From contig CM065389.1 of the NCBI GenBank assembly GCA_033060915.1, forward strand, positions 24,087,001-24,151,000: a stretch of DNA of 64,000 bases, read 5' to 3'. The notes below the pieces were generated by a model that was not told the DNA's origin, made no database searches, and saw only the letters and a list, made by a program, of their open reading frames with translations. Of this stretch, positions 9,977-63,941 are shown piece by piece. A program made the position numbers and the translations under genes. How positions within the stretch are numbered: position 1 is the stretch's first letter; each line of letters begins with the position of its first letter. This DNA is from Euryodendron excelsum. Lineage: Eukaryota; Streptophyta; Magnoliopsida; Ericales; Pentaphylacaceae.

Positions 9977-10729
9977 TGTTAACCCCAAGATTTCTATAAT
10001 GTTAATTTTATATTTTGATGATCAAACTTAAATGATTTTTATCTTGATAAATATATCTTGGCTGCATTATATCTTGCTAGATATATTTTTGCTAGATTTT
10101 ATCTTGATAAATATCTTTGCTAGATTGTATCTTGCTAAACATATCTTGGCTAGATTGTATCTTAAAGTTTTGACAGGAAATATCCAATGCAAAGATCATG
10201 GGAATACAATATGGAAATAAAGGAATAATTAGAAGATGTAATTATTTTTCTAGGAAGATCAAAGGTCAATAATACTATATCTATCACAGAGCCACTACAT
10301 ATTGGAAAACTATTCATATGGAAGATTTGTGAATGGAAGCAATGAAGGCAAGATTTCAGTGCAGCCTTTAAAAAGAAATAATGCAAGCCAAATGATATTC
10401 TAACATCAAGGCAATTTCCGTCAAGGACTACAAAGGAAAGATCTTGTGTCAAAGAAGATTTGATCTCAAAGAATCTAATTCAATCTTAAAGATATCAAAT
10501 CAAAGACAAGAAGATTTTGAAGAAGATATTTTTGGCCAAAAGAAAATATATTATATCAAGATAGATTTGACTTCAAAGATTCAAGATTTGAAGAAGATTT
10601 CGATTTATATCTACATGGAAGGAAAACTAGCAGCTGTCAAATTCAAATTCAAATTTAAATTTAAATCTCAAGATGGAAGCATCATAACTGGTTGAAGTTA
10701 GTTTTGGAAAGAAAATTCAAATGGCATAT

Positions 10730-11211: not shown

Positions 11212-13714
11212 TGTAAGCACCTCATTTTTGTTTGCTCGGCAATCTCTGGTCCGATTGGGCTTACTTTTACACATCACACGCATATCCAGACTCTAACCAA
11301 CCTTCTAAACTTGAATTTAGCTCACCAGTCGCTTCCCGGGCCCTTAAGGCTCACTTGAAGCTAAATGACCATTTTGCCCCTAGGCAACCGAGTGCCCCAA
11401 GAATCACACCGGCTTTGGGTATCAAACTGGTAGCCACTCGAGAATGCTCCTTATAGTATTCCTGGCCTTCCTTTATCTTTCCAGATCATTTCGAATCAAT
11501 TCCGGCAAACCCGGTGCAAAATGACTGTTTCGCCCCTAGCGGGCCGATCGCCTTTTCCAACCACACCGGCTTTGGGTATCAAACCGATAACCTTTGGAAA
11601 CATTCTAAATAATGTTTCCAAACCTCGAGTCTCCTTCTAGGACATTCCGAGTCCGTCCCGGCAGCTTTCCAGCCCGGTTGATCGTTTTGCCCTTAATGGC
11701 CTGGTCAACCCTTCTAACAAATCTCATCATCATTTTTCAAGTGCTTTGTCCCTGAGACATTATTCTAAGGGTTCCTGTCCTTTTTCGGCTCTCCGGGTCA
11801 TTCCTGGCCCCTTTAATTCATCCCCGGACCTTCCAGAGTCATTCCTAGTAAAACCAGGCTAAAAATTACATGGTAGTCATAGTACAAGCGCCTAAATCTT
11901 CTAAAGATACGTTGCTTGCCGACTTTAAACATTTCTTAAATAGCTGGCTGGGGCCACTAGGAGTGGTGCCAAGCCAAAAAATGGCTTGGTGCCACTAGGA
12001 GTGGCGCCAATGTAATTTTTGGCCTGGCGCCACTGCAACAAGCGCCAGTGCATTCTTCTCTCTATAAATACAGAGCCTCTTCCAGCGTGAAAGAGGTCCG
12101 CAAAATCAGTCTGAAAACCCTAATATTCAATATATAGAGCTCGTAGCCTCCCTAAACCCTAGCTTCTCTGGGTTTTCCAAACTTTAGCCACCATACACAA
12201 ACCCTAGCCTTCTATACATTCATACACACTCCTATACACTTATACACTAGCCTCCAACCCTCCATTGAAGGCTTGGATTGCTGCAACTTTAAGTTTTGAA
12301 GATCAAAGACAAGCCCTTGAAGACTGAAGTGAAGCGAAGATCAAAGAAAAGCAAGGCACACAAAGCAAAGTGAAATAAACAAGACAGGGTAGGCTTTCTC
12401 TTTAAGTTTATGCACTTCTCCCTCTCTCTTCTCTCGCCTAACCCACTTGGGTTTTCTTTTATTTTAATCCCCCATCTTCTTCCCCCCCTTTCTTTGCATG
12501 CTTGAAACAAGGGAGTTCCCGGTCCATGTGTAGGATTAGGCTATTGGAAAGTCACTGTGTCGGGGGCTTTCTTTTAGTTTAACCGGAAACTACGTGGGTT
12601 CGACCTCTCTTGATTATGTGGTGAAGCCTTTAACCTTGTATGTTCACGACCCTCTTTGCATTGTGCATATCATGATCTTGCATTTTTCCAAAGTTCGCTT
12701 TTAAACTCGTTTTCAAAATTGCATCAAAATCTTCTTTTTCAAAACTTGTTTTTAAAATTACAATCCTAGGGTGATTCTAGCCTTTTCATGGCTAGGGTTG
12801 CTTTAGGAAAGTGTTACATTTAAAGTGATCAATATGGTCCATATTTTCAAAACATTGTTGTTTTCAAAACCACTATCTTAAAGTGGTTCTAACCTTCTTA
12901 TGGTTAGAATCACTTTAGAAAAGTGAGGTATTTTCTATATACTTTCTAAAAATTCTCTTTTGAAATCCCTCCTTCTAAAAACCTTTCTTTCAACATACTT
13001 TCTAAAAACGCTCTCCAATCTATTTTCAAACTTCCAATTCCAAATTTCTATTTCCAAATCTCTATTTTCAATTTCCAAAACCTTCTTTCCAAATTCAAAC
13101 TTCTATCTCTTCCGTTTTAAATCAAATCAATTTCTTTCCAAATCTATTTTTCAATTCTCTTTTCTTGCATTTGCATATCATGCATCATGTCAAATTTCTT
13201 TTTAAACATTTTTTTTTTCAAAGTGGATAGGATTGAACATTGGTTAGTTGAAGACTCTCATAGGTGAATCTAGGGTAAATAGACATGTAGGTACTGCAAG
13301 GGCGGGGTAGGGTGATGGCTTAGTGTGTCTTCCCTACACGTAACCAACCTCCGAACTTATATCACTGTTTTCGAAAGACCAAACGGAGTTATATTTCTAA
13401 AAAAGGGCTTAATATTTTCTAAAGGTTGCTAAATAACTTGTTTAACCCTCTCTTGAGGAGATATTTTCAAAATCATTTTTTAAAAAACCCTAAGTGTGAT
13501 CCTCGGATTATGCTTAGTTTTTAGGTGAACTAACTCACCTTAATCAAGTTAGGTGACGACTCCAAACTTTTTTCAAAAGCCCTTAATTCAAACCAATTTT
13601 CAATTCAAACCTAGTCGCACTTATTCTTCTAGGAGGGTGAGTTCTAACGAGAGAGTACAATGTTTTTCCCGCTTGTGTATGTATTCCTCGAGTGCAAAAA
13701 ATCTGGGCGCGACA
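11212..13714 (+). mobile_element. Solo LTR A, Tat/Ogre-like gypsy superfamily
   Basis: Begins TGTAAGCACC and ends GGGCGCGACA. It is flanked by perfect 5-bp duplications AGGTG (11207-11211 and 13715-13719), so it is a complete solo LTR of 2503 bp left by LTR-LTR recombination. It shares its start, the ATGACC-TTTTGCCCCTA blocks, TATA region and end with LTRs B to E. It is much shorter than those (4.4-5.3 kb), through absence of the central expanded region. Host is the copia LTR. Confidence 0.9.
12063..12070 (+). promoter_or_regulatory. TATA box of LTR A
   Basis: TATAAATA in the context CTCTATAAATACAGAG. It lies just downstream of an imperfect palindrome built on TGGCGCCACT-AGGAGTGGCGCC (11950-12040). 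The same arrangement recurs in LTRs B, C and E, so this is the likely core of the LTR promoter. Confidence 0.7.
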
Positions 13715-14346
13715 AGGTGGACTAGCGCTGACAATGTTAGTGGCTATATTATGGATTTGGATATAGTGAAGACAAAATCTCAAGGAGGGAGCCTTGGGGA
13801 GTGGACGTAGGCCAAGGGAGCGCCGAACCACAATAAATCTTGTGTCTTCCTTTATTGCTTGTTTTGATCTTTTATGTTTGCCATACTTTATCCTATTGAT
13901 TGATAACTTTAGCATTGCTTGGTGAAATCATTGCATATATCTTTAACATTGCTTGGTAAAATTATTACATAAAAGTAACAAGTGCAAATTCATTCACTGT
14001 TAGGTTTTTGAGCTTGCTCATTCTTACTTTGAGAATTCTCCTTTTTGGTTCTGAAGTGAACTTAACTCTCTGTTTAATTGAGCATTCTCATACTGAACAT
14101 TGAGCATTCTCATTTAACTATTTAAACCACATTTGCTCTCTGGATAATTGAGCATTCTCATATCTGGTTTTGACCATTCTTTTATCTGCTTAATTAGGTT
14201 TTTAACTCGTTGTCAAATTAAGCTTTCTCATTCTAGTTTAGAGCTTGCTCATAACTATTGTACATATATTACTATTTTAAAAAGTTATTTTAAATTTTTT
14301 AAAATTTAATTTAGCCCCCCTCTCTTGGGTTGCTTTCTGGACAACA
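13715..14346 (+). repeat. Remainder of copia element 1 LTR
   Basis: After the target duplication the interrupted copia LTR resumes. It holds repeated TTGAGCATTCTCAT and TTGAGCTTGCTCAT motifs (14010-14260), a local degenerate tandem repeat, and ends GGACAACA. The frame 13553-13810 spans the solo LTR end and is not a gene. Confidence 0.6.
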
Positions 14347-14402: not shown

Positions 14403-16063
14403 TGGCAACTGCTATTAGCACTTCCCTTGCTGAAGGTCAATCGACAAATAGGCCACCTTTGTTTAATGGAACCAATTACAATGATTGGAAAGCTAGGATG
14501 AAAATCTACATCTAATCTGTTGATTATGAACTATGGAAAATAATTTTTAGTGGTCCTACCGCGCCTACCAATTGTAGAAGGTAAAACTATTTCTAAGATA
14601 GAAAGTGAATGGAACGAAGTTGATACAAGAAGTGTTCAATTAAATGCTAAATATATAAATCTTCTTTATTATACTCTTGATGCAAATGAATTTAATCGTG
14701 TATCTACATGTGAGTTGGCTCAAGAAATATGGAATAGATTAGAAGTTACACATAAAGGTACAAATCCAGTTAAAGAGTCAAAAATTAGTTTGCTTGTGTA
14801 CAAATATAAGTTGTTTCAAATGAATTTTGATGAAACTATTTTTGACTTGTTTACAAGATTCATTGATATTATAAATGCTTTAAAATCTCTTAAAAAATCC
14901 TATTCTAATGTTGAGATGGTGAGAAAAATTCTCAGGTCTTTACCATGAAATTGGGAAGCTAAGGTTACCTCCATCTAAGAAGCCATTGATCTTACTATTC
15001 TAAGTCTTGATGAGCTTTTATAGTCATTGATGACTTACGAACTCATAAGAAAAGGTGATGAGGATGAAAACGGAAAGAAAAAAGGAATAGCTCTCAAATC
15101 ATCCACTTGCTTAAACGATGAAGATGGTGGATCATGTGATGATGAGGAAATAGTTTTAATCACCCAAAAGTTCAAAAGCTACTTTAAAAAGAAAAAGTTT
15201 GGAGGAAAGTTCTCAAGAAGAGAACCCACAAAAGGAGAAAATTTCTCCAAAGATGCTATTGTGAAAATTTCTCCAAAGATACTATTATGTGTTATGAATG
15301 CAAAAATTTGGTCACATAAAGGCTGAGTGCCTTATGCTTAAGAAATCCAACAAGAACTCCAAATGTAGAAGCATGATGGCTACATGGGGAGAAAATGATA
15401 ATAGTGATTCCGAAAAAGAGGAACCTAGCGACACTGAACTGGCAAATCTCTACTTAATGGCTCATGAAACTGATGAGGTACAAAACAATACTGAAATTGA
15501 TAAGCATGTTTCTTTTGATGATTTTCAAAATGTTTTTGAGGAATTACTTCATGAGTTTGAAAAACTAATAGTGAAAAATAAAATCCTAAAAAAGAATGTT
15601 ACTTCTCTTTCTCATGAAAAGGAAACCCTTCAAAATGAAAATAAAGTTTTGAAAGAGAAATTTGAGAAACTTTCAAAAGAAAGTATTTCAAATGATTTGA
15701 AGCTTGAAAATAAGTCTTTGAAAAAGGAGCTTGAAACTGTGAATAAGTCTATGACTACTCTTGTTAAAAGGAAAGAGAATTTAGATACTTTACTTGGTTA
15801 ACAAAAATGTGCTTTTGATAAATCTGGAATAGGTTTTAAACAACAAAAGTCTTATAAAGATTTCTTTGTTAAAACCACATCTTACAATGCTCCAAATGTT
15901 ACATGCTATCATTGTGGTAGAAAACGACATATATCTCACTCTTGCGCTAGGAACTATTATGTTGGTGTTAAAAAGGTTTCGGTTCCTAAGAATTCTATGA
16001 AATCTCATGTGCATAAAGCTAACCTCTATGGACCCAACAAGATTTGGGTATCAAACATCAATA
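14403..16063 (+). pseudogene. Copia gag polyprotein (UBN2-type), broken
   Basis: The frame opens with ATGGCAACTGCTATTAGC and gives FNGTNYNDWKARMKIYI, the usual start of copia gag, then an in-frame stop. Fragments 14550-14948 (NEFNRVSTCELAQEIWNRL, UBN2 region), 15027-15326 and 15298-15801 follow, separated by stops and frameshifts. A first zinc knuckle near 15290 (CYECKN then GHIKAEC in another frame) is split by an indel; a coiled coil (15520-15790) and a second knuckle (CYHCGRKRHISHSC, 15904) follow. It ends at GPNKIWV where the CACTA-type terminus begins. Close relative of element 3 gag (43107-44177). Confidence 0.9.
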
Positions 16064-16320
16064 CACTACAAGAAAATGGGACTTTTGCTACGGATTCTAT
16101 TTGTGACGGCCCCTTTGCTGTCATAATATTGTTTTTTGCGACAACATCAAAAAACCAATGGCGACGACATATTTGCATCGGTAATGAATCTCGTTGCTGA
16201 AGCCTATGAAAATGATGTCATTTTTTTATGACGGAGTATTGGCGATGGCTCATATGCCATCGCATACGATGAACTTAATGCCACGGTAAGAACCCCGTCG
16301 CCAAAGCCTATTAGTGAAAT
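16064..16320 (+). mobile_element. CACTA-type transposon left terminus inserted in copia gag
   Basis: Starts CACTACAAGAAAATGGGACT exactly where copia similarity stops. Following sequence is crowded with GCGACGACAT, GACGGAG, GATGGCATATG-like and CCGTCGCC motifs in both orientations, the subterminal repeats of CACTA elements. The right end is not found; the sequence downstream (to 18404) may be its interior, later cut by LTR B. Confidence 0.65.
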
Positions 16321-18404
16321 GACATCATTTAGATGGTAAAAATTAATTTCTCCCCTTTTCCTTTTCTTCCTTCCCTCCCAAGCCCTAACGCTTTGTATTG
16401 ATCAATCCCAAAAAACCCCTCTCTCTGGCTTAAAATTTCAGCTCTGTCTTTCTCAGCCTCCACTCTTCCTCATTGAATCTTTCAAATCTGTCCTTCACAA
16501 CTGCCTCTTGCCATTGGTCTGACCCATTTTCGGCACCCAGGTATGCCTCTCTCTCTCTCTCTCTCTTACTGTCACTCTCCTTTTTCAGGTGCCACCATAG
16601 CCACCACCAAATTCCATTCGCTAATTGGAATTCCATTACGGACTAAGTTGGTATTTTAATTAAACTTCTTCTGTCATTGTAGAGAGCTAGAGTTGTTGAT
16701 GATTTTAGTTGTTGTGGACTTTGATAGCTTCGATTATATTGCTTCTTGTACAATCCATGCTACCCATTTGTGTATCTTGAATTCGCATGAAATTTTGGGT
16801 TAATATTTGAGCATTCATGCTCATTTCATAGTTATCAAGCCCTTAAACTCCCTATGTCAATCCCTTTTTTGACGTGATCATTTATTGGTAGTCTAGGGCA
16901 TGTGCTTGATCTACAATGATATTTTGTGGTTTTTTGTGACTTAATGTATGTAGGCTCTATTTTTACTTATATGGAGGCTCTTTACTGTTCTCCCCCCCGG
17001 CGCCCCTCCCCCCTCTCTCTGTATGTACATTTTTTGGCTTAAAAAATTTTCTTACATTTTCATTCCATCCATGTCTATTGTTTCTTCTCATGGCTTCTTC
17101 ACATTGCCTGAGTGGATGTAATATTTATGAAATCTTTCATTTCAGATGTCCTTGCCATTTGCCTCAATTGGGTTCACTAGGTGATGACTGGCGTGGTTGA
17201 TTTTGTGTTGATAGCATAGAGATTTTAGCTATTATTTTGATTATAAGCCCTTGTCTGGTTTGTACTAATTTCCAATCTCTTTTAACTGAAGCTACCTTCT
17301 ATATTTATTACTAATCTCTCCTACTATTTTCATTCCAGAGTTCTTTGAATATTAGACTCATTGAAATTACACTTTTCACCTTCTATGTTTTACCTAAATT
17401 TAAAATTTTAGGGTGTCTTATTTTAGAAAATAGTAATTGTATATAAGTTGCTTATGCAAAACATTCAAATCCATGTTTATATACTTCTCTAATTAATTTT
17501 AGTTTGATTTTGAATCCTTCAACAAGTACATACAATAGCTATAGTAGTTAAGAAAAAATAGCACATGGTCGAAATTACGCCCAACTTAACAACTACCATT
17601 TGCTAGGTAAATTTCATATGCCAACTTGTAAAAAATTTGGTTATTTGATTTCCAAGCTAAATGGGCAAAAACGCTAGGGTTTGTGATTATTTTTGGGGCT
17701 TTCATGGGCAGCCTGTCTGCCATTGGTGGTAATACTGATGTGGACATTTTATTGGCTTGTATTGGGTTGGTTTTGGTGAGTAAAAGGAAGACAAAGAGTT
17801 AGACAGTGAGGGAGTTAATTTTGGGTTTTTACAGTGCGACATGTATTTAAGTTTTTTTATTAGATATAACAAGAGTGAATTTTCTTGGTACTAAATATTC
17901 ATTGAGATTATTCTAAAAGTTCATCTTTTGTGTCTCTATTGTACATAATTATATCATTGCATGCATGCATACATATGTGCATGTTTATGATATTGTATTA
18001 TTGCATACTTTATATTATGGTCAACTCAAGAATATATGAGTTAATTAAAATATAAACATATCACCTTAGACCCATTCAAGAATCCTCATTGAAGCTAGTG
18101 TATTTAGCTTTGGTGAGATGATCCTTGAATTGTCCAGTTTCAGACAGTTTGAGAATGCATAAATCTATATGGTAGTCAGTGGCTGACTACTTTAAATTAT
18201 TCTTATTTGATAGAGATTGTGTGGCAAAATTTGTTATTCTCTGGATACATATGGGATGTAGTATATAGCAATATACATCGTTTATGGTGTGTACTTAGGA
18301 AAACTGCAGGGAGATACTATCATATTTTCCTTAAAGACGGACGAAGCGGTTTGAGCTGTCAAGGGAATATGTGGATGGAATTGACCAATTTCTTATGTTT
18401 GCGT
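16321..18404. other. Possible CACTA interior, no identified gene
   Basis: Resembles a plant gene leader in places: pyrimidine-rich TTTCTTCCTTCCCTCCC and (CT)n near 16550, then AT-rich intron-like DNA. Around 18090-18200 one plus frame reads SFGEMILEL, faintly like a kinase VYSFGVxLLEL motif, but no other kinase motif supports it. The frame beginning 18207 runs into LTR B and is not a gene. Confidence 0.3.
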
Positions 18405-23896: not shown

Positions 23897-23901
23897 ATAT
23901 T

Positions 23902-26900
23902 TTTTGCGCCTCGATTTTCCGCACTCGAGAAAAATACGCACAAGTAGAAAAAACACGGTATTCTCTCGTTAGAACTCATCCTCCTAGAAGAACAAGTGCT
24001 ACTAGGTTTGAATTTAAAATAAATTTGATTAAGAGCTTTTAGAAAGAGGTTTGGAGTCACCACCTAACTTGATTAAGGTGAGTTAAGCCACCTAAAACTA
24101 AGCATAATCCAAAGATTAAATTTAGGGTTTTTGAAAAGGTTTTGAAAACTTCATTAAGAGAGGGATTTTTAAAAAATAGGTTGTTTAGTAAATTTTAAAA
24201 AAATTGTGACATTTTTTGAAAATAACTCAATTTTAGTCTTTGAAAACAGTGATTCTAGGTTCAGAGGTTGGTTACATGTAGGGAAGACGCCCTAAGCCAT
24301 CACCCTACCCCGCCCTGGCAGTACCTATATGTCTGTTTACCTTAGGTTCACTCATTTAGAATCTTTGATTAACAATTGTCCCATACTATCCACTTTTAAA
24401 ATAAATTTTTAGAAAGAAAAATTGATATGATGTATGACATACAAGTGCAAGTAAAATATTTGATTTTGCAAAAAAATTTAAAAAGAAAGACTTGATTTGA
24501 AATTAGAGAGAAGGTTTAAGAAATTGGAATTGGAGATTTGAAAATAGATTTTAGAATTAAAAATTTGAAATAGATTATGGAATTAAAAATTTGAAAAAGG
24601 TTGTGGAATTAGAAACTTGAAAAAGATTGTGACCGAACTCATGAGGGTTACCTATATATCTCTTTTTGGGAATCAGATCAGTTGTAGGTCAAACAAGAGT
24701 CCAATTGAAAATAGACACTTTGAAGTTTTGAAAAATTTAATTTGAAAAGAGTTTGATTCAAAAAAGATTTTGATTTGGATTTAGAATAGAAGATATGAAA
24801 TCGAGATTTGATTTGAAATTGAACTTAGACTTGAAAAAATGTTTGAATTTGGAAGGAAAACTTGGACTTGACTTAGGAAAGATAAAGATTTGAAAACATC
24901 TTTGACTTAAATTGGAGTTTGGAAAACCATCTTAGTTTTAAAAAAGAGTTCAAAAAAGGAGTTGAAGCTTCCTAACTTAGGATTAGGGTTGAACTAGGGT
25001 TTAGGTAACCTAAGTTTGGAATATATAATTGAATTGGAAAGATTTGATTTAAATTTAAAAAGTTCAATTTTAGAAAATTGGATTTAGAAAATGTTCGAAT
25101 TAGTAAAGGTTCGAACTAGGAAAGTTGGATTTAAGAAAAATTTGAGAAGAGATTTGATTTGATTTGAAAACACTTGACTTGGAAGGATTTGGAAAGTTAG
25201 GGTTTAGGAAAGGTTGGACTTTGGAAAGTTTCGAATTAGAAATGTTTCAAAATAGGAAAGTTTCATTTCAGGAAAGTGCCAAATTAGAAAAGTGTTGATT
25301 TTAGGAAAGTTTAATTTTAAGAAAGCTTCATTTTAGGAAAGTCTTAAATTTAGAAAGTTTCATTTTAGAAAAGTTTTGTATTTGGAAAGTTTTGAATTTA
25401 GAAAGATTTAGAGTTTGGAAATTTGAAATTTATAAAAGTTTGAAATTAGGAAATGTTAGAATTAGGAAATGTTTGAATTAAGAGAGATTTGATTCCTATT
25501 TCCTAAAGTAGAAGATTAGATTTTATTTTAAAAAATTAGATGATTTGATTTGGTTTCTAAAATTGAAGAATTTGATTTAGTATCTTAAACGGGAAGATTT
25601 GATCTAGTTTCCTAATTTGAAAGATTGAATTTGACATGTAATTGGAAGGGTTGAATTTTGAAAATCTTAGATTTTGAAAGCTAATGATTTTGGTGTAGAA
25701 AAAGGGATTTAGGAAACCTATGATTTGATGTCGAAAATAGAGGTTTTGAAAGCCTATGATTTGAGGCAAAATTGGAAGTCATGATTTTAAGAAAAAGAAT
25801 TAGGGTTTCCTAACTATGGAATCTAGGGCTTGACTTAGACTCCAAAAAAAAAAAGAGACTTGGGAAAGAAGATCTTTTGAACAGAGTTTCTAGGAAGGAA
25901 ACTTGAAGAGAGTTTTTAAAAAGTGAATTTTGAACAGAGCTTTCAGAAAGAGATTTTAAAGAGCAATTTGGAGAGGAGTTTGAAAAGCAATTTGGAAAGG
26001 AGCTTGAATATGAACTTTTTGAGATCTTTTGAATGTCTCACTTTCTTGAAATGATTCTAACCATGAAAGGATTAGAACCATTCTAAGTTGGTAATTTTGA
26101 AAATAATATGCATTTGAAATATGGACCAATATGAACCCATTGAATATCACACTTTCCTAAAACAACCCTAACCATGGAATGACTAGAATCTTCTTAAGAT
26201 AGTGGTTTTGTTGAAAAATAAATTAGGGTTTACACTCAAAATATGGACCTTAATGGTCACAATTAATATAACACTTTATTAAAACAAACCCTAACAATAG
26301 AATTACTAGAATCATCTTAAGATTGTGATTTTGAAAACAAGTTTTGAAAAAGAGATTTTTAATGAAAGTTTGAAAGATGATTTTGATGCAAGTTTTGAAA
26401 ACCACTTTGAAAACAAATTTTGAAGGGATGTATAAATATGACATGCATAATGCAAGTGAGGTCGAAAACATACAAGGTTGGCTTCGCCATATAATCAAGG
26501 GAGCCAAATTCACATGGTCTAAGGTTGAAGTAGAAGAAAGTCCCTGACATGGTGACTTTCAACAGTCCTTTCTACACATGAATTGGGAAGACTCTTGTTT
26601 CAAGCATGCAAGAAAGGGGGGAAGAAGATAGGGGATTAAAATAGAAGAAAAGCCAAGTGGGTTAGGAGGAAGAAGAGAAGGGGGAAGTACATAAACAGAA
26701 AGAGAGACCCTACCTTATCTTCTTATTGTTTTGCTTACTTAATTTGCTTTACTTTACTTGATCCTTAAGAGCTTCCAAGTTGCAGCACTTTGAGTCTTCA
26801 ATGGAGGCTTTGGAGGCTTGTGTATGAGTGTATGGAGTGTGTATAGGTGTTAGTGTTAAGTGTATGGAGGCTAGGGTTTGAAGAGACTAGAGAGGCTAGG

Positions 26901-28640
26901 GTTTTGGAGAGACTTCGAGCTCTGTAATTTGAAAAGCAGAGTTTCTGCACTGAGTTTGCAGACCCTTTTTACGCAGGAGGAGGCTTTGTATTTATAAACA
27001 TAGGATTAGCTTGGTGCCTGTTGTAGTGGCGCTAGGGCAAAATTCCTTTTGGCGACATTCAGGCCAATTTTTGGCTTGGCACCACTGTTAGTGGTGTGAG
27101 CCACTTAGGAAAGTTTTAAGGGCGGCAAGCAATATATCTTTCGACCCTTGATATACAAGGCAAAAGATTTGATCACCTGTATTAGTGACTACCATGTAAT
27201 TTTTGGCTTGGCTCTACTAGGAGTGACTCCGGAAGGTTCGAGAATATTCTGCGTGGTCGAGAATGATCCGGAAGACCGAAAATGGGTAGAAACCCTTGAA
27301 ATAATGTCCTAAGGGTAACATACTTGAAAAGCAATGTTGGGATTATTGAAGTGGTCGGTCAAGCCCTTAGGGGCAAAACGGTCAACTAGACCAAAAAATC
27401 ACCAGAATAGACTTGGAATGACTCATGAGAGGACTTTAAGTTTGGAAACACTATCTAGAGCGTTCTAGGGAATTGTTGTTTTGATAACCAGAGCTGGTAT
27501 GGTTTGAAAAGGCGGTCGGCTCACTAGGAACAAAATGGTCATTCCGCATCGGGTTCGCCGGAATGGACTCGGAATGTTTCGGAAAGGTGCTAGAAGATCG
27601 GGAATACTATAAAAAGTATTCTCAGGAAGTAACCAGTTTGATACCCAGAGCCAGTGTGGTTCTCGGAGGCATTCGGATGCCTAGAGGCAAAATAATCATT
27701 TTGACCGGATGGTCTCGGAATTGGTCCAAAATTGACTGGAAGGTAGTTAAACATGAAGGATGGACTTATCGCTTTGAGGAATTAGGTACTTTCTTGAAAA
27801 ACGTGGCAGAAAAGGCCTAACGGATAGTTTGGTCATTTTTACTAGAGTGGGCTAGCAGGCACTGGTGTTGACCTGGGTTTTAAGTGTTTCCATTACTCTG
27901 ACGGTTTGTGATAAGTTAGTTTTTAAATATATCTTGTCCTTTAGTAAACGGGTCACGGCCAAGAGGCGAGTTCGGTCTCGTGACATAGGGCTTTTATTGG
28001 CAATTTCTAATGTTGTCCTGTTTGTGAATGTTTCCGCCACTTTGACGGTTGCAATGTATGTAAGTATTTCTGCCACTCTGGCGGTGTGCGTTCATTCTAG
28101 AGACTACCTGATGTTGAGAAGTTGCTTGGTGGACTTATCGTCTGAGGAATAAACTTTTTGGAAAGACATGCCGAATAACAAACATTCTTCATTGGTAGGC
28201 TAGCATGCGCCAAAGGTGAACCGTTCTACTATTTTGGGGACTTGGATTCTTTCCTGGTTGACTGGTTTGAAGGGACTTACCGTTTTGAAGAGTTTTCTCA
28301 AAAAACGTGCCGGACTGGATGGGCTTATCGCCTAAGTGATCAACTTTATCAAAAGGCATGCCGGATTTGATCTGGATTGAAATTGGATTTGAAATTGAAT
28401 TTGAGATTGAAATAAAGATTTATCATCTATAGGAAGACGTGGCAACTAGAATTGGACCGAGTAATGCTCCAAGGGCATTTTGGTCATTTTGTCTCTATTG
28501 GGCCCAGTGGACCTGCAAAGCGATTGATTGACTAGATTAACTCTGAAAAATTGATTTGGACTTGAATATGTATGCGTTAGTTTGAATATGAGTTAGGTCA
28601 GACTACAGATTGCCGAGCAAACAAAAATGGGGTGTTTACA
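23902..28640 (-). mobile_element. Solo LTR C, Tat/Ogre-like gypsy superfamily
   Basis: On the minus strand it starts TGTAAACACCCC (from 28640) and ends at 23902 in GGCGCAAAA (relatives GGCGCAACA). Perfect 5-bp flanks ATATT occur at 23897-23901 and 28641-28645, so it is a complete 4739-bp solo LTR. Interior matches B in reverse, including the long run of TTTGGAAA/GATTTGA-type motifs (24400-26400). The host sequence on both sides is copia element 2. Confidence 0.9.
26990..26997 (-). promoter_or_regulatory. TATA box of LTR C
   Basis: Minus strand TATAAATA in GTTTATAAATACAAAGCC. The same palindrome-type motifs around GGCACCACTGTTAGTGG lie upstream on the minus strand (27030-27100). Confidence 0.65.
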
Positions 28641-40880: not shown

Positions 40881-41118
40881 TATTGGTCCAATAGGCAATC
40901 GAAGAGGGGGGGTGAATTGGGTTTTTCGAATGTTAATGCAAGTTAAGATTAGTTAAAATTAATCTAAACAATATAGCAGTAGTTAATCTATGTGTAAAGC
41001 AATGTTATCAATAGAAGTAAAGAAAACATAGCAATAGAAGAGAGACACAGATTTACCGAGGTTCAACCACAAACCGTGGTCTACATCCTCACCCCAAGAC
41101 CTCCTTGAAGTCTTCTTT
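40881..41118 (-). repeat. 3' LTR remnant of copia element 3
   Basis: Aligns with 44234-44470, the end of the 5' LTR (TTGGTCCAAT, GGGGGGTGAATTGGGTTTTT, ACCGAGGTTCAACCACAAAC). Breaks off at 41118. The terminal TG is TA here. Confidence 0.9.
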
Positions 41119-41945
41119 CACAAACCGTGGTCTCTTTCTTTTTGAGGTTCCTCATTTGAGCTTGGTTGGATGTCCAGCTTTTCCATTCCAGATTCTAGCT
41201 CATCTGCATCATCACTTGCAACATTCTTTGAAGAAGGATTAAGTTCATCAAAAGTGATGTGGACAGATTCTTCAACAACTAGAGTCCTCTTATTAAAGAC
41301 TCTACAAGCCTTGCTATGTGTTGAATAGCCAAGAAATACACCCTCATCTGATTTAGCATTAAACTTACTGAGGTTGTGTTTATTGTTATTCAATACAAAA
41401 CATTTACATCCAAAAGCTTTAAAGTATGAGACATTTGGTTTCTTTTCTTTCCAAAGTTTAAAGGGGGTTTTGTTTAAAAACTTTCTAAATAAAATTCGAT
41501 TTAAAACATAACAAGCTGTGTTAACAGCTTCAGTCCAAAAGTATTTTGGTAAACCATTTTCACAAAGCATGGTTCTACCCATTTCTTCTAAAACTCTGTT
41601 TTTCCTTTCAACAACCCCATTTTGTTGAGGTGTTCTAGGAGCTGAGAAATTGTGATCAAAACCATTTTCATCACAAAACATTTCAAAAGGTTTACAATCG
41701 AATTCCCCTCCATGATCAGTCCTAATAGAAGTAATTGAAATTCCTTTTTCATTTTGGACTTTTCTACAAAATTTTATAAAGAAGACAATTGTCTCATCCT
41801 TATGAGTTAAGAAGAATGTCCATGTAAATCTAGAATAATCATCGACAATAATAAGTGCATATTGTTTACCGCCAAGACTTAGAGTCCTAGTAGGTCCAAA
41901 TAAATCCATATGCAATAGTTGAAATGGCCTAGAGGTAGTAAGCAT
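41119..41945 (-). pseudogene. Copia integrase core, uninterrupted, C-terminally truncated
   Basis: 275-residue frame starting just before LLHMDLFGPTR. DDE residues are all present: Asp in DDYSRFTWTF, Asp in IRTDHGGEFD, Glu in NGVVERKNRVLEEMGRTML. The plant copia motif YVLNRILFRKFLNKTPFKLW and the FGCKCFVLN and GVFLGYSTHSKACRVFN segment follow, ending within the integrase tail. Upstream of the Met the pre-integrase zinc domain continues in the same frame. No RT follows. It would join element DNA to the host; the element as a whole cannot move. Confidence 0.95.
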
Positions 41946-42545
41946 GTTTAAAGATTTGAAAGAAATTCTAGTTTGTTTACCTAATTGACAAGCATCACAA
42001 ATTCTGTTTTTTTTTAAATTTTATCTTTGGAAGACCTTTGACTAAATCATATTTAGAAACTTTTGAAAGTATGCTCATACTAATATGACCAAGTCTTCTA
42101 TGCCACAACCAACTTTCATCACTATTCATAACAATAAGAATTCTATTTTGCATGAAGATAAATCATTAAGATTGAAAACATAAATATTGCCTTATCTATG
42201 TCCAGTGAGAATTATCTTGTTATCATTAATGTCAATTACATCACATTTAGTGGATTCAAATACAACCTTGCACCCTTTGTCGCACAATTGACTAATGCTC
42301 AAAAGATTGTGTTTGAGTCCCTTAACAAGTAGTACATTTTCGATAGAGGTAGAGGAATTCTTACCAATACTACCTATACCGAGGATCTTTCCTTTGCTAT
42401 TGTCACCAAATGTGACAAGACCTCCATCCTTTGGAGAGAGAGAAATGAATTGAGCTTCATCCCCCGTCATGTGCCTTGAGCATCTACTATCCAAGTACCA
42501 ATGATCTTTCTTGGATTTGACTTGAAGGCAAACCTACAGCAGAGT
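41946..42545 (-). pseudogene. Copia protease end and GAG-pre-integrase domain
   Basis: 42494-42192 reads [42 protein letters not shown]. The copia protease active site is DSG; here it is DSR. Upstream two stops occur in the same frame. 42190-41946 on the minus strand continues with LWHRRLGH, GLPK and ICDACQLGKQTR, the zinc-binding pre-integrase. An A9 run at 42005 may cause a frame slip. Confidence 0.9.
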
Positions 42546-52719: not shown

Positions 52720-53175
52720 TGGCTTGCATGGTTTCAAATAAATTAAATTGCCCCATTGGCAAATAAGTAATATTCAAACATTAAGATGGGCCTAATACCA
52801 TTGTAAAATAATGAGATTGGCTTTATGCTTAATATGGGATGGGCCTAAGGCAGGCATGAAATAATGTTTTGAGAGCCCAGTGACTAGGATGACATGATTC
52901 AAATGATAAAATGGGCGTAGTAGCCCACAAAAACTTGTTTCTAAATGATACGCATGCAACCTATTCAATTTGACAAAGTAGTCTATTAGCTAAAACTGAG
53001 TCTTAAAAAATGCCAAAAAGAACATTCGAGAAAAATGATATTTGTGATAATAAAGAAAAAAATTTAATAGCAAGTTTCAACCTCTATTGATCAAAAGCTA
53101 TTTTTCGAAGGAGTTTTGGCAAATTTTAACCAACAAAATGCATTCAAAGTGGAGATTATGATTGCTATAATAAAA
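52720..53175 (+). repeat. Dispersed repeat, copy 2
   Basis: Partner of 9541-9976. Here the sequence continues beyond GATTATGATTGC with TATAATAAAATAG, showing the state before copia insertion in the other copy. Confidence 0.75.
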
Positions 53176-53253
53176 TAGAGTTTAGGCCGAGTTCGACTCC
53201 TCTAAGTTAATTTGTGCTATATTTTGTAAAGTAACCTCTCATTGGTCAACATC

Positions 53254-53282
53254 CACTACAGGAAATTACACATTTGGCGACC
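53254..53282 (+). repeat. CACTA left terminal inverted repeat
   Basis: CACTACAGGAAATTACACAT followed by TTGGCGACC; pairs with 56953-56981. Confidence 0.88.
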
Positions 53283-53716
53283 ACCTTGGGCGACGGATAC
53301 AAAATCTTGTCGCCAAAGGGGAACTTTTTGCAACAATATTTTCCTTTGTCACCAAATGAGTTATTTTCTGCATCAAGATTTGTTCGGGTCGCAAAAAGTT
53401 TACTTTTTGCAATGAAATTTTACTTTTGTCGCCAATTGTTGCCTTCCTATCAGATTTTTTTAAGAATACTGCGACAACTTTCATTTCTCGTTGCCAAACA
53501 AAATATTTTCCACAACGAGATCACGTTATGGTCGCCAATTGTTGCCACAAAATTTGGCGGCATGACATTTTTAGCGCTAAAAGAAGGAAATGTTGTAGGC
53601 CTACGAAATATTTTAAATTGCAACGATGTCGTTTTGTGGCTGAAATTGCTCCCAGTGAATAAGAATCCCGTTTTTCATTTTTTTCCCTTTAGACTTGTGT
53701 GCCTCTGTTCCTATCT

Positions 53717-53720
<4 letters not shown>

Positions 53721-53753
<33 letters not shown>
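53721..53753 (+). repeat. (TC)n microsatellite in the CACTA element
   Basis: Run of TCTC followed by pyrimidine-rich sequence. Plant 5' leaders often look like this, so it may be the leader of the captured gene. Confidence 0.9.
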
Positions 53754-55097
53754 GCTTTGTCTCTCTACCTCTGAACCTCACATCTGTGCAGCACCGACAC
53801 TTTGTTGCTTCGCCCATTGTGAATCGAAAAAGTTGTTGAAGAAGGGTTCGCCAAAGGAGAGTTTTCTCTCCACCTGCACACAAGTACATTGGTTTCCTTC
53901 TCTCTCTCTTAGAATCCCTAACATTGTGCTCCCAATTTCAGAAAACCTAACTTAAGATGCTAGTGTATATATGGATGCCATATAGATATCCCACAGGAAA
54001 AAAAAATTGATTCGATCCCCAATTGATTGGTAGGGAACCTCATATAATGTCAGGTCCATGAATTTTTTTTCTTCCTGAATCAAGGAATAGTGGCTTGGTT
54101 GGTCCACCTGTTAGGTCCACAAGAATGTTAAATAGGTCTATGTCCTGTCGTCATTCTCATCATTTAGCTAATTACAATTATTAAATTAGGGACAAAGCTT
54201 AGGATTGGATTTGTGAAGGGAACGAAAAGAAAAAAGAAAAATATATCACAAGAAAATAAAGTTAAATAGGATAAAATATTTTTTTAGTTTGTTAGTTTAA
54301 GAAAAATGAGAAGAAAATGAATAGAATGTAATGCAAGACCTTGTAAATGTTGATGGTTTCAATAGAACTAGCACTAATGGTTTTGTTGAATGTCTTGAAT
54401 TTTTCACAACCATCATTTTCTTTATTAATTTATTTAAAAGAACATCCTGAACTTGTTAAATGAGTCAATTAATGTCGAAATGTATCTCTACCTAAGAGAC
54501 ATAATAGGTGTTTCTGTAACATTCTCAATGGCTATCAGTCAAAAGAGGGGCCATCCTTAGTGCAACAGTAGAGTTAAAACTTAGCAGAATTTTTTATCAC
54601 AAGATTCCTCTAGGCTTTCACAGTCACTTAAGCAAAGTCATTGGTTATTGTTTCTAGATAAGAATGGTATTACCAAGTATATTAGTGCAACGCTCATATT
54701 GTTCCCAGAGAATCTAGATCTCCAATTTTTCCTAAGTTCTTTGGGTTCTTAAAATGGCTTTTAATAGGTTTTATTCAAATAAAACATGAGGCTCTAGGTT
54801 TGCTATCTATTTTAGTTTGATTTTATCTTGTTATCATCTTGGATAAATTTCTAAATAGCTAAATACATGGCAATTGAATCATGAGCCGAGATCATAAAGA
54901 GCATACTGCGAGTAGGAAGTGGAATTAATACAATGGATTCAGAAGCATCAAACCTCTCTTGTTCGAAAGAATAGAAACATGTCAAAATGGTACCAACTGG
55001 GGTTTGAGTAGTATGAAAAGGGGATTATTATTTATTATTTAATTTCTTGAAGCAGTAGGGCCCGAGGCGAGGACATCATCTCTGTCGAGATTTGGTC

Positions 55098-55130
55098 CCC
55101 TTACCTTGCTTAAATGGTCACATTGAGCAA
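55098..55130 (+). pseudogene. ARF pseudogene, exon ending in GHIEQ
   Basis: Degenerate exon end. One frame gives GPLTLL (relatives CAGPLVSLP), another gives GHIEQ at the exon end (relatives FPQGHSEQ). The join to the next exon, which begins with VAASMQ, matches the phase and place of an intron in ARF genes. Only the last few codons are readable. Confidence 0.6.
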
Positions 55131-55223
55131 GCATGTTGTTCCTCTCTTTTGTTCTACCATAAAAAAAAAAAAGTTAAATTCGAGTTCCTAGTGGACGATA
55201 TTTTGACAATTATAACTCTAAAG

Positions 55224-55317
55224 GTTGCAGCATCAATGCAAAAGCAGACTGATGGCATTCCAAGCTATCCTAATCTTCCTTCTAAGTTGATTTATGCTTC
55301 ATAATCTCACTTTACAT
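55224..55317 (+). pseudogene. ARF pseudogene, exon VAASMQKQ to LHNLTLH
   Basis: After AAAG the exon reads VAASMQKQTDGIPSYPNLPS then KLI, which is the conserved N-terminal segment of ARF5/7/19-type proteins with almost no change. A one-base indel then shifts the frame; the next frame reads MLHNLTLH, again the ARF sequence, and the exon ends at the expected intron position. The first half of the domain that precedes the B3 DNA-binding domain is thereby identified. Confidence 0.92.
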
Positions 55318-55606
55318 ATATAAGAACTTACCCCACTCAACACAACAATTTTTTAGAAGTATTTTCCCATTAAAAAAATTATTTGTTAATTAAGAAAAAG
55401 ATTGCATCTATGTTGTTTTGCTCTTTGCCAGTGTCTACATTATTTATATAACAATCATTTATGTTTTTGTCCTTCTTGTACTTTTCTTCTATTTAGACTA
55501 CTATTGAACAATCTGAGTGGTAGGACACATGTAGTACAATTGCAATGACATAAGCTTTTGATGGTCAAAAGCTAGAAACATCTTATGGTCTGCTGAATTG
55601 GATCAG

Positions 55607-55666
55607 GCTGATCCAGAAACTGATGAAGTCAATGTGCGGATGACTCTTCAACCTATAAGCAAAGAG
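55607..55666 (+). pseudogene. ARF pseudogene, exon ADPETDEV to TLQPISKE
   Basis: Starts right after CAG with ADPETDEV, continues NVRMTLQPISKE (relatives YAQMTLQPVNK) and is followed by GT. Frame is open. This is the small exon that follows LTLH in ARF genes. Acceptor (CAG) and donor (GT) are both visible, so the flanking introns are retained. Confidence 0.92.
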
Positions 55667-55789
55667 GTTGGCCCTATATTATCAACTTCAATCTATTACA
55701 ACATAGTTATCCTTTTTTGTTTTATTATTTATAGGGGGTAGTGGTTACCTCCGCCTAATTGAAATAGCATTTGGAATGCCATCTTACAC

Positions 55790-55935
55790 TATGACCAAGA
55801 AGCATGACTTGTATCTAATATGAGCCTCAAGCAAAGCCCTGAATGTTTTTTTCAAAACTTACAGATAGTGACATATGCACTTCTGGTGGATGTTCTACAC
55901 CTTGTGAAGCCACTGAGAAAATCTTCCCACTTCTA
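55790..55935 (+). pseudogene. ARF pseudogene, exon YDQEA to B3-domain start
   Basis: Reads YDQEA, stop, LVSNMSLKQSPECFF, matching the ARF linker ending in EFFCKTLT. After one indel the frame gives TDSDICTSGGCSTP and EKIFPLL, the start of the B3 DNA-binding domain (relatives SDTSTHGGFSVPR and EKIFPPLD). Ends at a clear donor GTATGT (55936). In-frame stop and frameshift make it dead. Confidence 0.92.
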
Positions 55936-56026
55936 GTATGTGCAACAATTTCAAATTTTGTGAATATTAAAAATGAGCATTAGGCACTGGGAGTTTCCTT
56001 GTTCATTGCTTACCATGAAGTTGTAG

Positions 56027-56111
56027 GATTTCTCAATGCAACCCTTTGCTCAGGTGCTAGTGGTTAAACATTTGCATGACCAACCATGGACATTTAGATA
56101 TATTTACCGTC
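56027..56111 (+). pseudogene. ARF pseudogene, exon DFSMQPFAQ to TFRYIYR
   Basis: Preceded by GTAG acceptor. Open frame DFSMQPFAQVLVVKHLHDQP then WTFRYIYR, the second exon of the B3 domain (relatives DFSMQPPAQELVARDLHDN and WTFRHIYRG). A GT lies at 56112. No further ARF exon could be read between here and the right subterminal repeats, so the captured piece ends in or just after the B3 domain. Confidence 0.93.
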
Positions 56112-56952
56112 GTATTCTCCTTTAAATATCTTTCATTCCCCTCTTTCTCATTCTACTTTGTTGTTCTCATGTTTGAATAGATGCTTTTGTTAAACTTATG
56201 TTGCTGAAAAACAGTTAACCACTAGATCTATAATGTGTTTCATTAAAAGTATTGAATGATATTTTCTTTTTTTTTGGTCCCAGACAGATGATGCGAAGCA
56301 TGTGATGGATTTGGGCATCAATGAAGACTTTTGTTTTGTATTTAGAAGTTCACGTATTGTAACATTTGTTTCAAAATTTTGCATCGCAAAATATTTTGTT
56401 ATATGAAGATTTTTCTTTTGTATTCGAATGTGATTTTGGCTATTTAATTTAACAATTGTTAGCAGAATGATATCTATTGATGAATGTACCAGTTGTGACT
56501 AAGTTTACATGTGTATGCGTATGAACCAAAAAAAAAAATGTGTCCAATGTATGTTAGTGCATTTATTAAAAATTTATAATGCACTAATGGCAAAGAAATC
56601 AGTCACCAAGAACTTAGCGGTGAAATTTTTTTGCTGCTAAAAGTAATATTTCCATTTTGACCAGTAATGTTTAGCAACAAAAATCATTTGACGCCTTTGG
56701 GTTATGCTTTTGCAACGTGATCATGTTGTTGGGGAAATAGCATTAGGGCGACGAAATGTTATGTCGTTGCCAAAAGTATTAGATTTGGCGATGATTAATT
56801 TTGTTGCAGAAAGGTTACATTTGGCAACGGACTCATAATTTGTCGCAAAAGACTTTTTGTGTCAAGGGTATGGCAACAACATGGCGACAAAATAATGTTG
56901 GTCGCCAATTATTTTTAGCGACAAATATCTTACTTTTGGCAACGAATACTTT

Positions 56953-56981
56953 GGTCGCGAAATGTGACTTTTCTTGTAGTG
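56953..56981 (-). repeat. CACTA right terminal inverted repeat
   Basis: Ends TTTTCTTGTAGTG; reverse complement of the left end with few differences. Confidence 0.88.
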
Positions 56982-56984
56982 ATA

Positions 56985-57590: not shown

Positions 57591-58768
57591 TATGATTACA
57601 CTCCAAAAATGTAATCTCAATCCCCTAATTAATGGATTGTCAGCTCTAGTTTAGATATTAGACTAGTAGTTTATCTTTAAATTGTCCTAAATAGTCTTTT
57701 GATCTAATTGCAGGGAATGAAGCTTAATTATAGAAAAAGGGCCAAAAAGTGCAGCACCGAGTGATAACCGAGTGATAGCTGAGCGCTCAATCGAGCGAAC
57801 ACCCCAACTCACTAAGCGCTTGGCCGAGCACTAGCTTAATGCTTGCCTAGCACTCGAACATCGAAAAATGCATCGATTGCTAACTTCAGAGAGTTATTTT
57901 CACCGTTTGAATTAGGAGCGCTAATCGAGTGCTCGTCCAGCACTCGCCTGACAGATTCCTATTTTTGCATTAGTTATAAAAGGCTGTTTTGGGCATTTTT
58001 GAAGGCATCTTTTCATATATCTCTCATTTTTACTTACTTTTCTTAGATTTCTTTGTATATGAGTAGTTTTAGAGAGAGAAACTCTATTTTTTTTTTTTTT
58101 ACTTTCTCTCACTTTTCTTCATTTTTCATGTAACCAAACACTAGATTTACTTCAATGTAATGCAAAATCTTCATTTCTTTATGCTTTCTTCCATGAAATC
58201 TAGTAGCTAATCTTCTACTTAGATACAATTGTGAAGATCTATCAAGGATCTTCAACGATTTCATGAAGTTATATGAATCTTATAGATCTATCTTTAGATT
58301 TCTCTAATTCTACTTAATTGAGTTCTAAATTCATTTGAAAACCTAGATTCATAACCCAATTTGGCAACTCCTATGCACAATTCCTCAATTGGTATAGGGA
58401 TTGCACAAATCTAAGGTTTGTTTCTATGATTCTATCAATTGATTACAATTCTAATCTCAATTAAGTTTGAATTCAAAGTTTTATGGCTTAAATCATCCGA
58501 ATCAAGGATCCACTAAGTGATCCTTGATTTGAGTTATAACTTCCTCCATTAAAATTCTCATTATGAATTGGTGGATTGAATCAATTGTATTCAAGCTTCT
58601 TTAATTGCACTGAAATCTAGATTTATCTTGCTCTAATTGCTTCAATTAGTTATTAATTGCCTTGCATTAGTTTAGTCAATTCAATCTCTCCCAACAACAA
58701 AGGATTTTTGGTTTTCTTTTGCCTAAATACAATTTGCTTAATTGTTGTTCAATTCAAGTTAGTTTAGT

Positions 58769-59057
58769 TGTCACACCCCCATCCCAATTAGACATCATTA
58801 ATGTTATATTAGGTGAGGCATGATCGCATAGAACACAGGGAAATAAACACCATTATTTTATATAACCATGGACCACTATACATAAATATAAATTATATCA
58901 GAGTAAACCATCCCACAATCATGGACATGAAATAGATTAAGCAAGAACATGATGCATCTTGCCTCAAATGATAAATACAAGTTGGACACAAGTTTTTCCT
59001 CTTGAATTCTCTTCTCTCCTCTTCTCTCTTTCTCTATATGTATATATATCTCCTCTA

Positions 59058-59104
<47 letters not shown>

Positions 59105-59517
59105 ATGATGGCAGCCAACAACAACTCTTGACTTCCTCTCTTCATTTTTTTCTTCTTCTCTCTCCCATGATGCTAGGCCACCCATTCTCCACTAGCCTTT
59201 CTTTTTCATTTTCTTTTTCTTTGTCTCCCCACTGACCTTATCCCCCTCTTGTCTTCTCTCTCTTTCTCTCCACCGAAAGCCTATATCTTCCTTCTTGACT
59301 TCTATTGTAACTAGAAGCCAAAATAGATATAAGAGTGTATTTCACACCCTTAGGTATCCTATGCACACAGTCACTAATGACTCCCCATTCAACTCACCAT
59401 CTAACTCACCAATTGCCACATGCAACACACACACACACCCGCATAATTTTAAATACCAATTAACCATGAAATAAATGTAATTTGCTACTTATGAAATTAT
59501 GAGATTAGAGTCTCACA
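58769..59517 (+). mobile_element. 749-bp solo LTR (TGTCACACCCC family)
   Basis: Starts TGTCACACCCC, ends TCTCACA, with perfect 5-bp duplications TTAGT at 58764-58768 and 59518-59522. The uninterrupted 3' LTR of the host element shows the empty site at the matching place (62850). Its start matches the LTR tip at 1846-1902, so it probably belongs to the gypsy family whose pol is at the left edge. Contains a (CT)n run. Confidence 0.92.
59060..59100 (+). repeat. (CT)n microsatellite
   Basis: CTCT run inside the solo LTR. The frames on both strands here translate only the dinucleotide repeat. Confidence 0.95.
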
Positions 59518-59665
59518 TTAGTGATCTCCAAGTGTTGGTAGCCTATGTTTGGCTTGGTCCTCTTAGGAATCGACTCCGGTACTCACCGGATTTGTGCTAC
59601 AATTGCGATACTTGTTCTCTTACGAGAGCTCAATTTTCGAACATCTTTGGAAGCGACTCAAGTTT

Positions 59666-61600: not shown

Positions 61601-62990
61601 TATGATTATACTAGAAAAGTGTAATCTCAATCATCTAATTAGTGGATTGTTAGCTTTATTTTAGCTGTTAGACTAATATTTTATCCTTAAATTATCATAA
61701 ACATGCCTTTTTGATCTAATTACTGGGAATGGAGCTTAATTATAGAAGAAATGGTCAAAAAGTGTATCATCGAGTGATAACCGAATGATAACTAAATGCT
61801 CGGCCTAGCAATCGCCCAACTCACCGAGCGCTTGACCAACTTATTGAGCGATTGCTACCCAACTCATCGAGAGCTCAATTGAGCACATGCCTAGTGCTCG
61901 CTTGGCACTCAGATGTTGAAAAAATGCTCTAATTGCTAACTTCAGAGAGCTGTTTTCACTATTTATTTTAGGAGCGGTAACCGAGTGTTCGGTCTCTTAG
62001 GCGAGCGCTAACCGAGCGCTCACTCAGGACTCGCCTGATGGATCCCTATTTTTGCATCACCTATAAAAGGTTATTTTTAGTATTTTTGAAGGCATCTTTT
62101 CATATATGTCTCAGTTTTACTTACTTTTCTTAGATTTCTTTATATTATGAGTAGTTTTAGAGAGAGAAACGCTATTTTCCTTTAGTTTCTTGCACTTTTC
62201 TTCATTTTTAATGTAACCAAACACAAGATTTACTTCAATGTAATGCAAGATCTTCATTTGTTTGTGCTTTCTTCCATGAAATCTAGTAGCTAATCTTTTA
62301 CTTAGATGCAAATGTGAAGATCAACAAAGGATCTTCAAGGATTTCAGTAGAGGTATATGAATTTCATAGATTTATCTTTAGATTTCTCTAATTCTACTTA
62401 ATTGAGATCTAGATTAATTTGAAAACCCAGATCATAACCCAATTTGGTAACTCCTATGCACAATTCCTCAATTGGTATAGGTATTGCACAATTTCAAGGT
62501 TTGTCTCTATGATTCTATCATTTGATTACAATTCTAATCTCAATTAAATTTGAATTCAAGGTTTTATGGTCTAAATCTTCCATGTCAAGAATCCATGGAG
62601 TGATCCTTAATTTGATTTATAACTTCCTCTATGGAAATTCTTGTTATGAATTGGTGGATTGAATGAATTGTATCCAAGCCTCTTTAATTACACTTAAATA
62701 TAGCTTTATCTTATTTGAATTGCTTCCATTAGTTGTTAATTTCCTTGCATTAGTTGAGTTAACTCAATCTCTCTCAACAACAAAGGATTTTTTGCTTTCT
62801 TTTTACCTTGATACAATTTGCTTAATCGTTGTTCAATTCAAATTAGTTTAGTGTTCTCCAAGTGTTGGTAGTCGATATTTGACTTTGTCCTTAAGAAAAT
62901 TGACTCCGGTACTCACCAGATTTATACTTCAATTGCGACACCCGTTCTCTTTCGGGAGCTTAATTGCTGAACATCTTTGGAAGTGATTCA
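61601..62990 (+). repeat. 3' LTR of the non-coding element
   Basis: Partner of 57591-59660, uninterrupted; 1390 bp, ends AAGTGATTCA. The frames inside are not genes. Confidence 0.85.
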
Positions 62991-63859: not shown

Positions 63860-63941
63860 CTCTTTCTAAGAGTAGGCGTGGAGAGCTTTTTGCGGGGAAA
63901 CTTGCAAGTACAGTTTGGGGGGAGGCGGGCGTCGACCCAAC
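63860..63941 (+). other. Group II intron 3' end with domain V, cox2 intron
   Basis: The 34-base domain V lies at 63883-63916: it opens GAGCTTTTTGCGGGGAAACT, contains GCAAGTACAG and closes GTTT, matching the conserved GAGC...GAAA...ACGTACGGTTC-type pattern with an AGC catalytic triad. Domain VI-like sequence follows and the intron ends in AAC (63941), before the cox2 exon. The position matches the cox2 intron known as cox2i373. The 5' end of the intron is not identified in this window. Confidence 0.85.

Follow-up and report, generated by a model that had tools for sequence, protein, structure and literature searches.

How did pieces of a gene for an auxin response factor (ARF) come to lie between inverted repeats of the CACTA type in the chromosome of Euryodendron excelsum? 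The stretch that raises this question, hereafter the window, comprises 64,000 nucleotides (GenBank assembly GCA_033060915.1, contig CM065389.1, positions 24,087,001 to 24,151,000 of the forward strand), and coordinates are counted from its first letter. A preliminary description, made from the letters alone, had placed at 53254..56981 a CACTA transposon that had captured an ARF gene segment together with its introns. Based on the analysis below, the locus is very probably a Pack-CACTA element, a non-autonomous DNA transposon of the CACTA (En/Spm) type, carrying a captured, intron-containing segment of an ARF gene of the ARF7/19 class.

Both ends of the element start with CACTAC, so that inverted termini of the CACTA superfamily are present. 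The left terminus, CACTACAGGAAATTACACATTTGGCGACCA at 53254, and the right terminus, CACTACAAGAAAAGTCACATTTCGCGACCA read on the other strand from 56981, are identical at 25/30 positions and at 23/28 over the first 28. In simulated 64-kb sequences (n=60) that kept the dinucleotide make-up of the window, with the ends of a pair set 300-15,000 bp apart, the best CACTA-anchored pair reached 20/28, a value attained in 5/60, and the match lies beyond it. In the real window, a survey of 1854 CACTA-anchored pairs with a spacing of 300-30,000 bp returned two others that equal or beat 23/28, namely 11955/27093 (25/28) and 20052/27093 (23/28), and as these match as well or better, the 28-bp match of the terminal inverted repeats (TIRs) is not by itself unique in the window. 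The former pair sits on a diagonal of longer inverted repeats and the latter near another such diagonal.

The subterminal structure is a stronger sign of a CACTA element than the TIR match. Short-unit direct and inverted repeats are present at both ends, as seen in motif counts and self-BLAST. With overlapping sites counted separately, the left 400 bp hold 12 sites of the GGCGAC/GTCGCC/GGCAAC type and the right 401 bp hold 14; a single one lies in the 2,927 bp that separate these regions, and the other 60,272 bp of the window contain 44 sites of the same motif set. Elsewhere, 400-bp intervals taken in 50-bp steps hold at most 5 such sites, and those with 5 surround another CACTA end at 16064. 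The longest stop-to-stop frame of the element measures 172 amino acids, and no transposase family (Pfam) was found in the 10 of its 46 frames (frames of at least 38 amino acids) that were scanned; the element looks non-autonomous. A frame running through the left subterminal repeats, 53360-53659, gave Pfam K_trans_C at E 1.5e-4, under the curated cut-off, and perhaps some of the potassium transporter models behind that family include CACTA ends.

Inside the TIRs, in gene order and on a single strand, lie exons 3-6 of an ARF gene preceded by the last residues of exon 2, and coding DNA of a host gene is therefore present (Table 1). Exon numbers follow the usual numbering of ARF genes, in which exon 5 is the start of the B3 domain and exon 6 its middle. 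Identities were scored against an ARF7/19 sequence and each exon was set against 150 control windows, none of which did as well for any of the four; the end of exon 2 ranks first in the window. These exons had been read in the same order and on one strand in the preliminary description, and that reading is borne out. Searching the whole 64 kb by tblastn with two ARF sequences, one of them the 4ldu stretch, placed the best blocks all in 55221-56110 (E 5.9e-8 and 4.3e-10), the best matches outside this interval having E 0.31 and 0.41. Whole B3 and ARF domains were not found, as judged by there being no ARF match of E<0.3 in the window outside 55221-56110; no search was aimed at the C-terminal domain.

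Beyond NGHIEQ, exon 2 is not recognisable, and six other blocks that were tried rank 28 to 274 in the window. A start of exon 2 picked out by eye at ~55063-55100 was rejected, since its frameshift-tolerant alignment score was reached by 82/300 shuffles and at 51/284 other places, and its start block ranks 46 in the window by block profile; it is not claimed here. Neither exon 7 nor the stretch that follows it was found in 56111-56580, where 93/150 and 28/150 control windows, respectively, do as well. The recognisable ARF part thus starts with the last residues of exon 2, closes with exon 6 and reaches into the B3 domain. It had been thought to end near that domain, and this has to be amended to an end inside it, at the close of exon 6.

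Resemblance to its relatives places the passenger as a piece of an ARF7/19-class auxin response factor. When the ARF pieces were joined and compared with the PDB, Auxin response factor 5 was retrieved (4ldu, E 4.2e-30), and in a large protein collection 40/41 candidates matched at E<=0.001. The numbered ARF names among these 40 relatives are ARF19 (6) and ARF7 (1), the remaining ones being called ARF without a number, hypothetical protein or nothing; candidates were limited to 0.55-1.75x the 113 residues of the query, by which full-length ARFs were left out. From the ARF5/7/19-like assignment made earlier the 7/19 part is retained, whereas ARF5 is nearest only among solved structures.

The intervals between the exons bear on the route by which the segment was acquired. 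Intron positions were judged from those open frames of real ARF genes, among the 40 relatives, that read through an exon border. Of the 40 proteins, 6 leave the exon behind GHSEQ, 12 behind LTLH, 7 two residues past LQPV and 2 behind IFPPL; at the IYR end there are eight relatives, six diverging immediately or one residue on, one stopping and one continuing. Two proteins were left out of these counts, P0024 with its short insert after GHSEQ and P0008, in which the stretch after IFPAL resembles exon 6 in another frame. At every one of these positions the window is non-coding, and the intron positions of the class are thus found here. As non-coding sequence occupies the positions of real ARF introns, we conclude that the segment was captured from genomic DNA with its introns retained, as had been proposed, and a processed, intronless ARF copy is ruled out on the same ground.

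The borders themselves are half preserved. Splice dinucleotides are kept at 4/8 expected places, 3/4 acceptors (AG) and 1/4 donors (GT), and extending exon 4 by one codon supplies a GT donor and brings the tally to 5/8. The claim that AG and GT stand where they are expected accordingly holds for four borders and fails for the other four.

Support from the sequence of the introns depends mainly on one relative, P0034, and support from their position on many. The end of intron 2 was compared with 28 relatives and the start of intron 3 with 34, the tests being empty for P0024 in the former (1/28; it reads through exon sequence) and for P0169 and P0170 in the latter (2/34; a single residue there). 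A score reached by at most 4/400 controls was obtained at the end of intron 2 with P0034, P0162, P0164 and P0165 (4/28 relatives) and at the start of intron 3 with P0034 alone (1/34), which is about chance level; P0034 is the only relative that scores for both. When all AG sites outside the element were tried, 0/3574 control sites reached the score of the intron 2 end against P0034. The start of intron 3 against P0034 is weak, as 47/5815 controls (every second GT, AT or GA site) reach its score. Nothing at or below 4/400 was seen for the end of intron 3 (2 tests), the start of intron 4 (7) or the start of intron 5 (3), the best being P0013 at 5/400. Unanchored intron similarity was mostly negative in eight tests, the best score being reached by 4/300 shuffles and the next by 12 and 18.

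Exons 3-6 together carry two frameshifts and one stop. As these come with the loss of half of the splice dinucleotides, the ARF piece is a pseudogene fragment and not a gene. To judge from such defects it looks no longer able to work and is probably not translated, and the element is a carrier of a passenger pseudogene.

Table 1. Features of the CACTA element, its flanks and its ARF segment, in window coordinates
Feature	Positions	Strand	Basis or remarks
Left flanking triplet ATC, candidate target site duplication	53251..53253	.	2/3 bases equal to right ATA
Whole non-autonomous CACTA element with ARF fragment (very probable)	53254..56981	+	3,728 bp; TIRs, subterminal motif clusters
Left terminal inverted repeat, 30 bp	53254..53283	+	End-to-end comparison, simulations
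Left subterminal repeat region	53254..53653	+	12 GGCGAC/GTCGCC/GTTGCC-type sites at 53276-53620; internal repeats
CT-rich 5'-leader-like stretch; candidates: element leader or captured 5' untranslated region	53685..53950	+	Sequence reading only
End of ARF exon 2 (NGHIEQ)	55113..55130	+	Block profile, rank 1 of 63983 positions
ARF intron 2	55131..55223	+	Donor GC (after exon 2), acceptor AG (before exon 3); position as in real ARF introns
ARF exon 3, VAASMQKQTDGIPSYPNLPSKLI/MLHNLTLH	55224..55317	+	28/31 identical, 1 frameshift, 0/150 controls
ARF intron 3	55318..55606	+	Donor AT (after exon 3), acceptor AG (before exon 4); position as in real ARF introns
ARF exon 4, ADPETDEVNVRMTLQPISK	55607..55663	+	14/19 identical, 0/150 controls
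ARF intron 4	55664..55789	+	Donor GA (after exon 4; GT one codon further), acceptor AC (before exon 5)
ARF exon 5	55790..55935	+	28/48 identical, 1 frameshift, 1 stop, 0/150 controls
ARF intron 5	55936..56026	+	Donor GT (after exon 5), acceptor AG (before exon 6), both intact
ARF exon 6, DFSMQPFAQVLVVKHLHDQPWTFRYIYR	56027..56110	+	19/28 identical, 0/150 controls; ends at usual exon border
Right subterminal repeat region	56581..56981	-	14 motif sites at 56712-56939
Right terminal inverted repeat, 30 bp	56952..56981	-	End-to-end comparison, simulations
Right flanking triplet ATA	56982..56984	.	

Several points weigh against an element that captured the ARF segment and moves as a whole. The flanking triplets, ATC and ATA, are identical at only 2/3 bases, and the rest of the window is without a second copy of the element (blastn, E<=0.01). 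An empty site was not found in the window either: the left flank 52773-53166 has an 83% copy at 9599-9977 that stops short, ending 87 bp before the insertion, and at that locus the right flank scores 81, where shuffles reach up to 91. Moreover, the subterminal motif set was picked only after the ends of the element had been inspected, and neither the parental ARF gene nor the capture junctions were seen in the 64-kb window.

On these points an arrangement of another kind could be built: two independent CACTA insertions, each having lost its inner end, would flank with their outer ends a resident ARF pseudogene, or an ARF fragment brought here by a different route, and the pair may never have moved as a unit. 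The differing triplets and the single copy of the whole unit in the window speak in its favor, and yet the interior is without a further end of the CACTAC(A/C)AGAAAA type at up to 2 mismatches, the terminal regions are separated by a middle that is nearly free of the motif, and the two ends are alike over their first 30 bp and have the motif set in common, for which reasons we hold such an arrangement unlikely. The view that the TIRs match by chance or form an inverted repeat of unrelated origin, leaving a mere ARF pseudogene in a repeat-rich region, could draw on the two other CACTA-anchored pairs that score 23 and 25 of 28. Those pairs sit on or near the diagonals of long inverted repeats, whereas simulations top out below the observed match and motif clusters as dense as these occur only at these two ends, which makes a chance origin highly improbable.

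A different objection concerns not the origin of the ARF piece but its fate, namely that it is in use, either through transcription that yields small RNAs acting against the host ARF7/19 genes or through exons spliced into neighbouring transcripts, as with the exons of Tgm-Express1 in soybean, which are spliced into host transcripts according to the published account drawn on here (PMC1947982). The identity of exon 3, still 28/31, and the two intact borders of intron 5 agree with such use; against it stand the loss of 4/8 splice dinucleotides, the two frameshifts and the stop, and the lack of a host gene nearby, as far as open frames of at least 110 amino acids were considered and 8 frames elsewhere in the window scanned, which gave retrotransposon families or nothing. 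We regard use of this kind as no less improbable than a chance origin of the termini. Fainter still is the prospect that the element fed several genomic places with a transcribed ARF7/19 fragment, and that RNA from it silences the auxin response genes resident in the genome or tunes them; if true, auxin signalling in this lineage would have gained a trans-acting regulator from a transposon.

Returning to a Pack-CACTA element with a captured ARF segment, its ends, i.e., the CACTA inverted termini and the clustered subterminal motifs, form the cis part, as CACTA ends are described to do in the relevant section of a study of Chenopodium (PMC8978399). A transposase supplied from another place in the genome by an autonomous relative, as is usual for the family, would move these ends, and the ARF piece would have been taken from chromosomal DNA. 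Most likely, either two adjacent CACTA insertions were mobilised together as one and their inner ends were lost, following a published model (PMC8903248, PMC13317346), or a break within the element was repaired off the ARF gene. As the middle keeps just 1 motif site, nothing in the element points directly to inner ends that it once had. After capture the segment would have been an unselected passenger in which frameshifts and a stop accumulated and splice sites were broken, and any effect on the plant would run via small RNAs or spurious splicing.

Events of this type are well known from soybean, Arabidopsis, rice, maize, grapevine and Chenopodium, which upholds the earlier remark that plant CACTA elements carry pieces of host genes; rice and maize cases are covered in PMC8903248. 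The soybean element Tgm-Express1, as portrayed in the part of the report used here (PMC1947982), is a CACTA element of 5.7 kb with exons and introns of five host genes. Our element resembles it in its CACTA ends, its size of several kb and its host-gene exons with introns, but the five unrelated gene pieces of Tgm-Express1 keep canonical GT/AG, whereas here a single gene is recognised and its borders are half destroyed. Tgm-Express1 also sits in a gene and is spliced into the transcripts of that gene, whereas no host gene is seen around the present element. Pack-CACTA and Pack-TYPE elements are non-autonomous, as ours looks to be, and likewise hold gene-derived DNA within Class II TIRs, but the target site duplications stated there for annotated CACTA elements measure 5 nt (excerpts of PMC8903248), unlike the 2/3 agreeing bases seen here; for grapevine CACTA families a length of 3 is given for some and none for others (sections of PMC2528002).

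The CACTA-like elements of Chenopodium share with ours the carriage of gene pieces (neprosin superfamily, AP2) and subterminal repeats of 10-20-bp units, but downstream of their captured gene pieces they retain a coding domain that is conserved (same sections of PMC8978399), whereas no transposase domain was found here in the frames scanned. In grapevine, by the portions of PMC2528002 consulted, two Cactavine-5 copies carry part of a PPR gene, and intronic together with exonic sequence occurs in PIF, hAT and Mutator elements; the genes are others, and the families were defined there from genome copies. We recognised no report of an ARF piece in a CACTA element in the open-licence literature, as judged by the title and the opening of the abstract for part of the matches, and the word auxin is absent from the main text of both a 2026 review of gene capture (PMC13317346) and the grapevine paper (PMC2528002). 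The value of the locus lies in its being one clear case with a readable anatomy, in which the ends, the passenger gene, the positions of exons and introns and the course of decay can be followed.

The rest of the window offers some further observations. The CACTA end at 16064 is a second left end (CACTACAAGAAAATGGGAC...), extends over 16064-16340 with subterminal motifs of its own and falls within 15802-16200, a stop-to-stop frame located downstream from a copia gag frame; it is followed by a CT-rich leader-like stretch similar to that at 53685-53950, and no convincing right end was found for it. Long diverged inverted repeats, 11397-13715 and 23901-27666, are split into a number of pieces, 10-16 kb apart, that follow about two diagonals. 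A copia integrase frame is located at 41118-42020; the 120 relatives listed out of 6818 matches include no close one, reaching at best 64% over its full length and no more than 70% over a part. To the right of the element, two direct repeats, 57591-59660 and 61601-62990, share ~80% identity, and the sequence between them is free of open frames of at least 110 amino acids; they are probably an old long terminal repeat (LTR) element without coding capacity, whose left repeat copy seems to contain an insertion at ~58769-59517. Beyond the LTR-like repeat, the segment 62991-64000 encodes a psbF-like peptide (Pfam Cytochrom_B559, E 8.2e-11) and has a group II intron match (Rfam RF00029) at 63881-63941; it is probably organelle DNA inserted in the nucleus.

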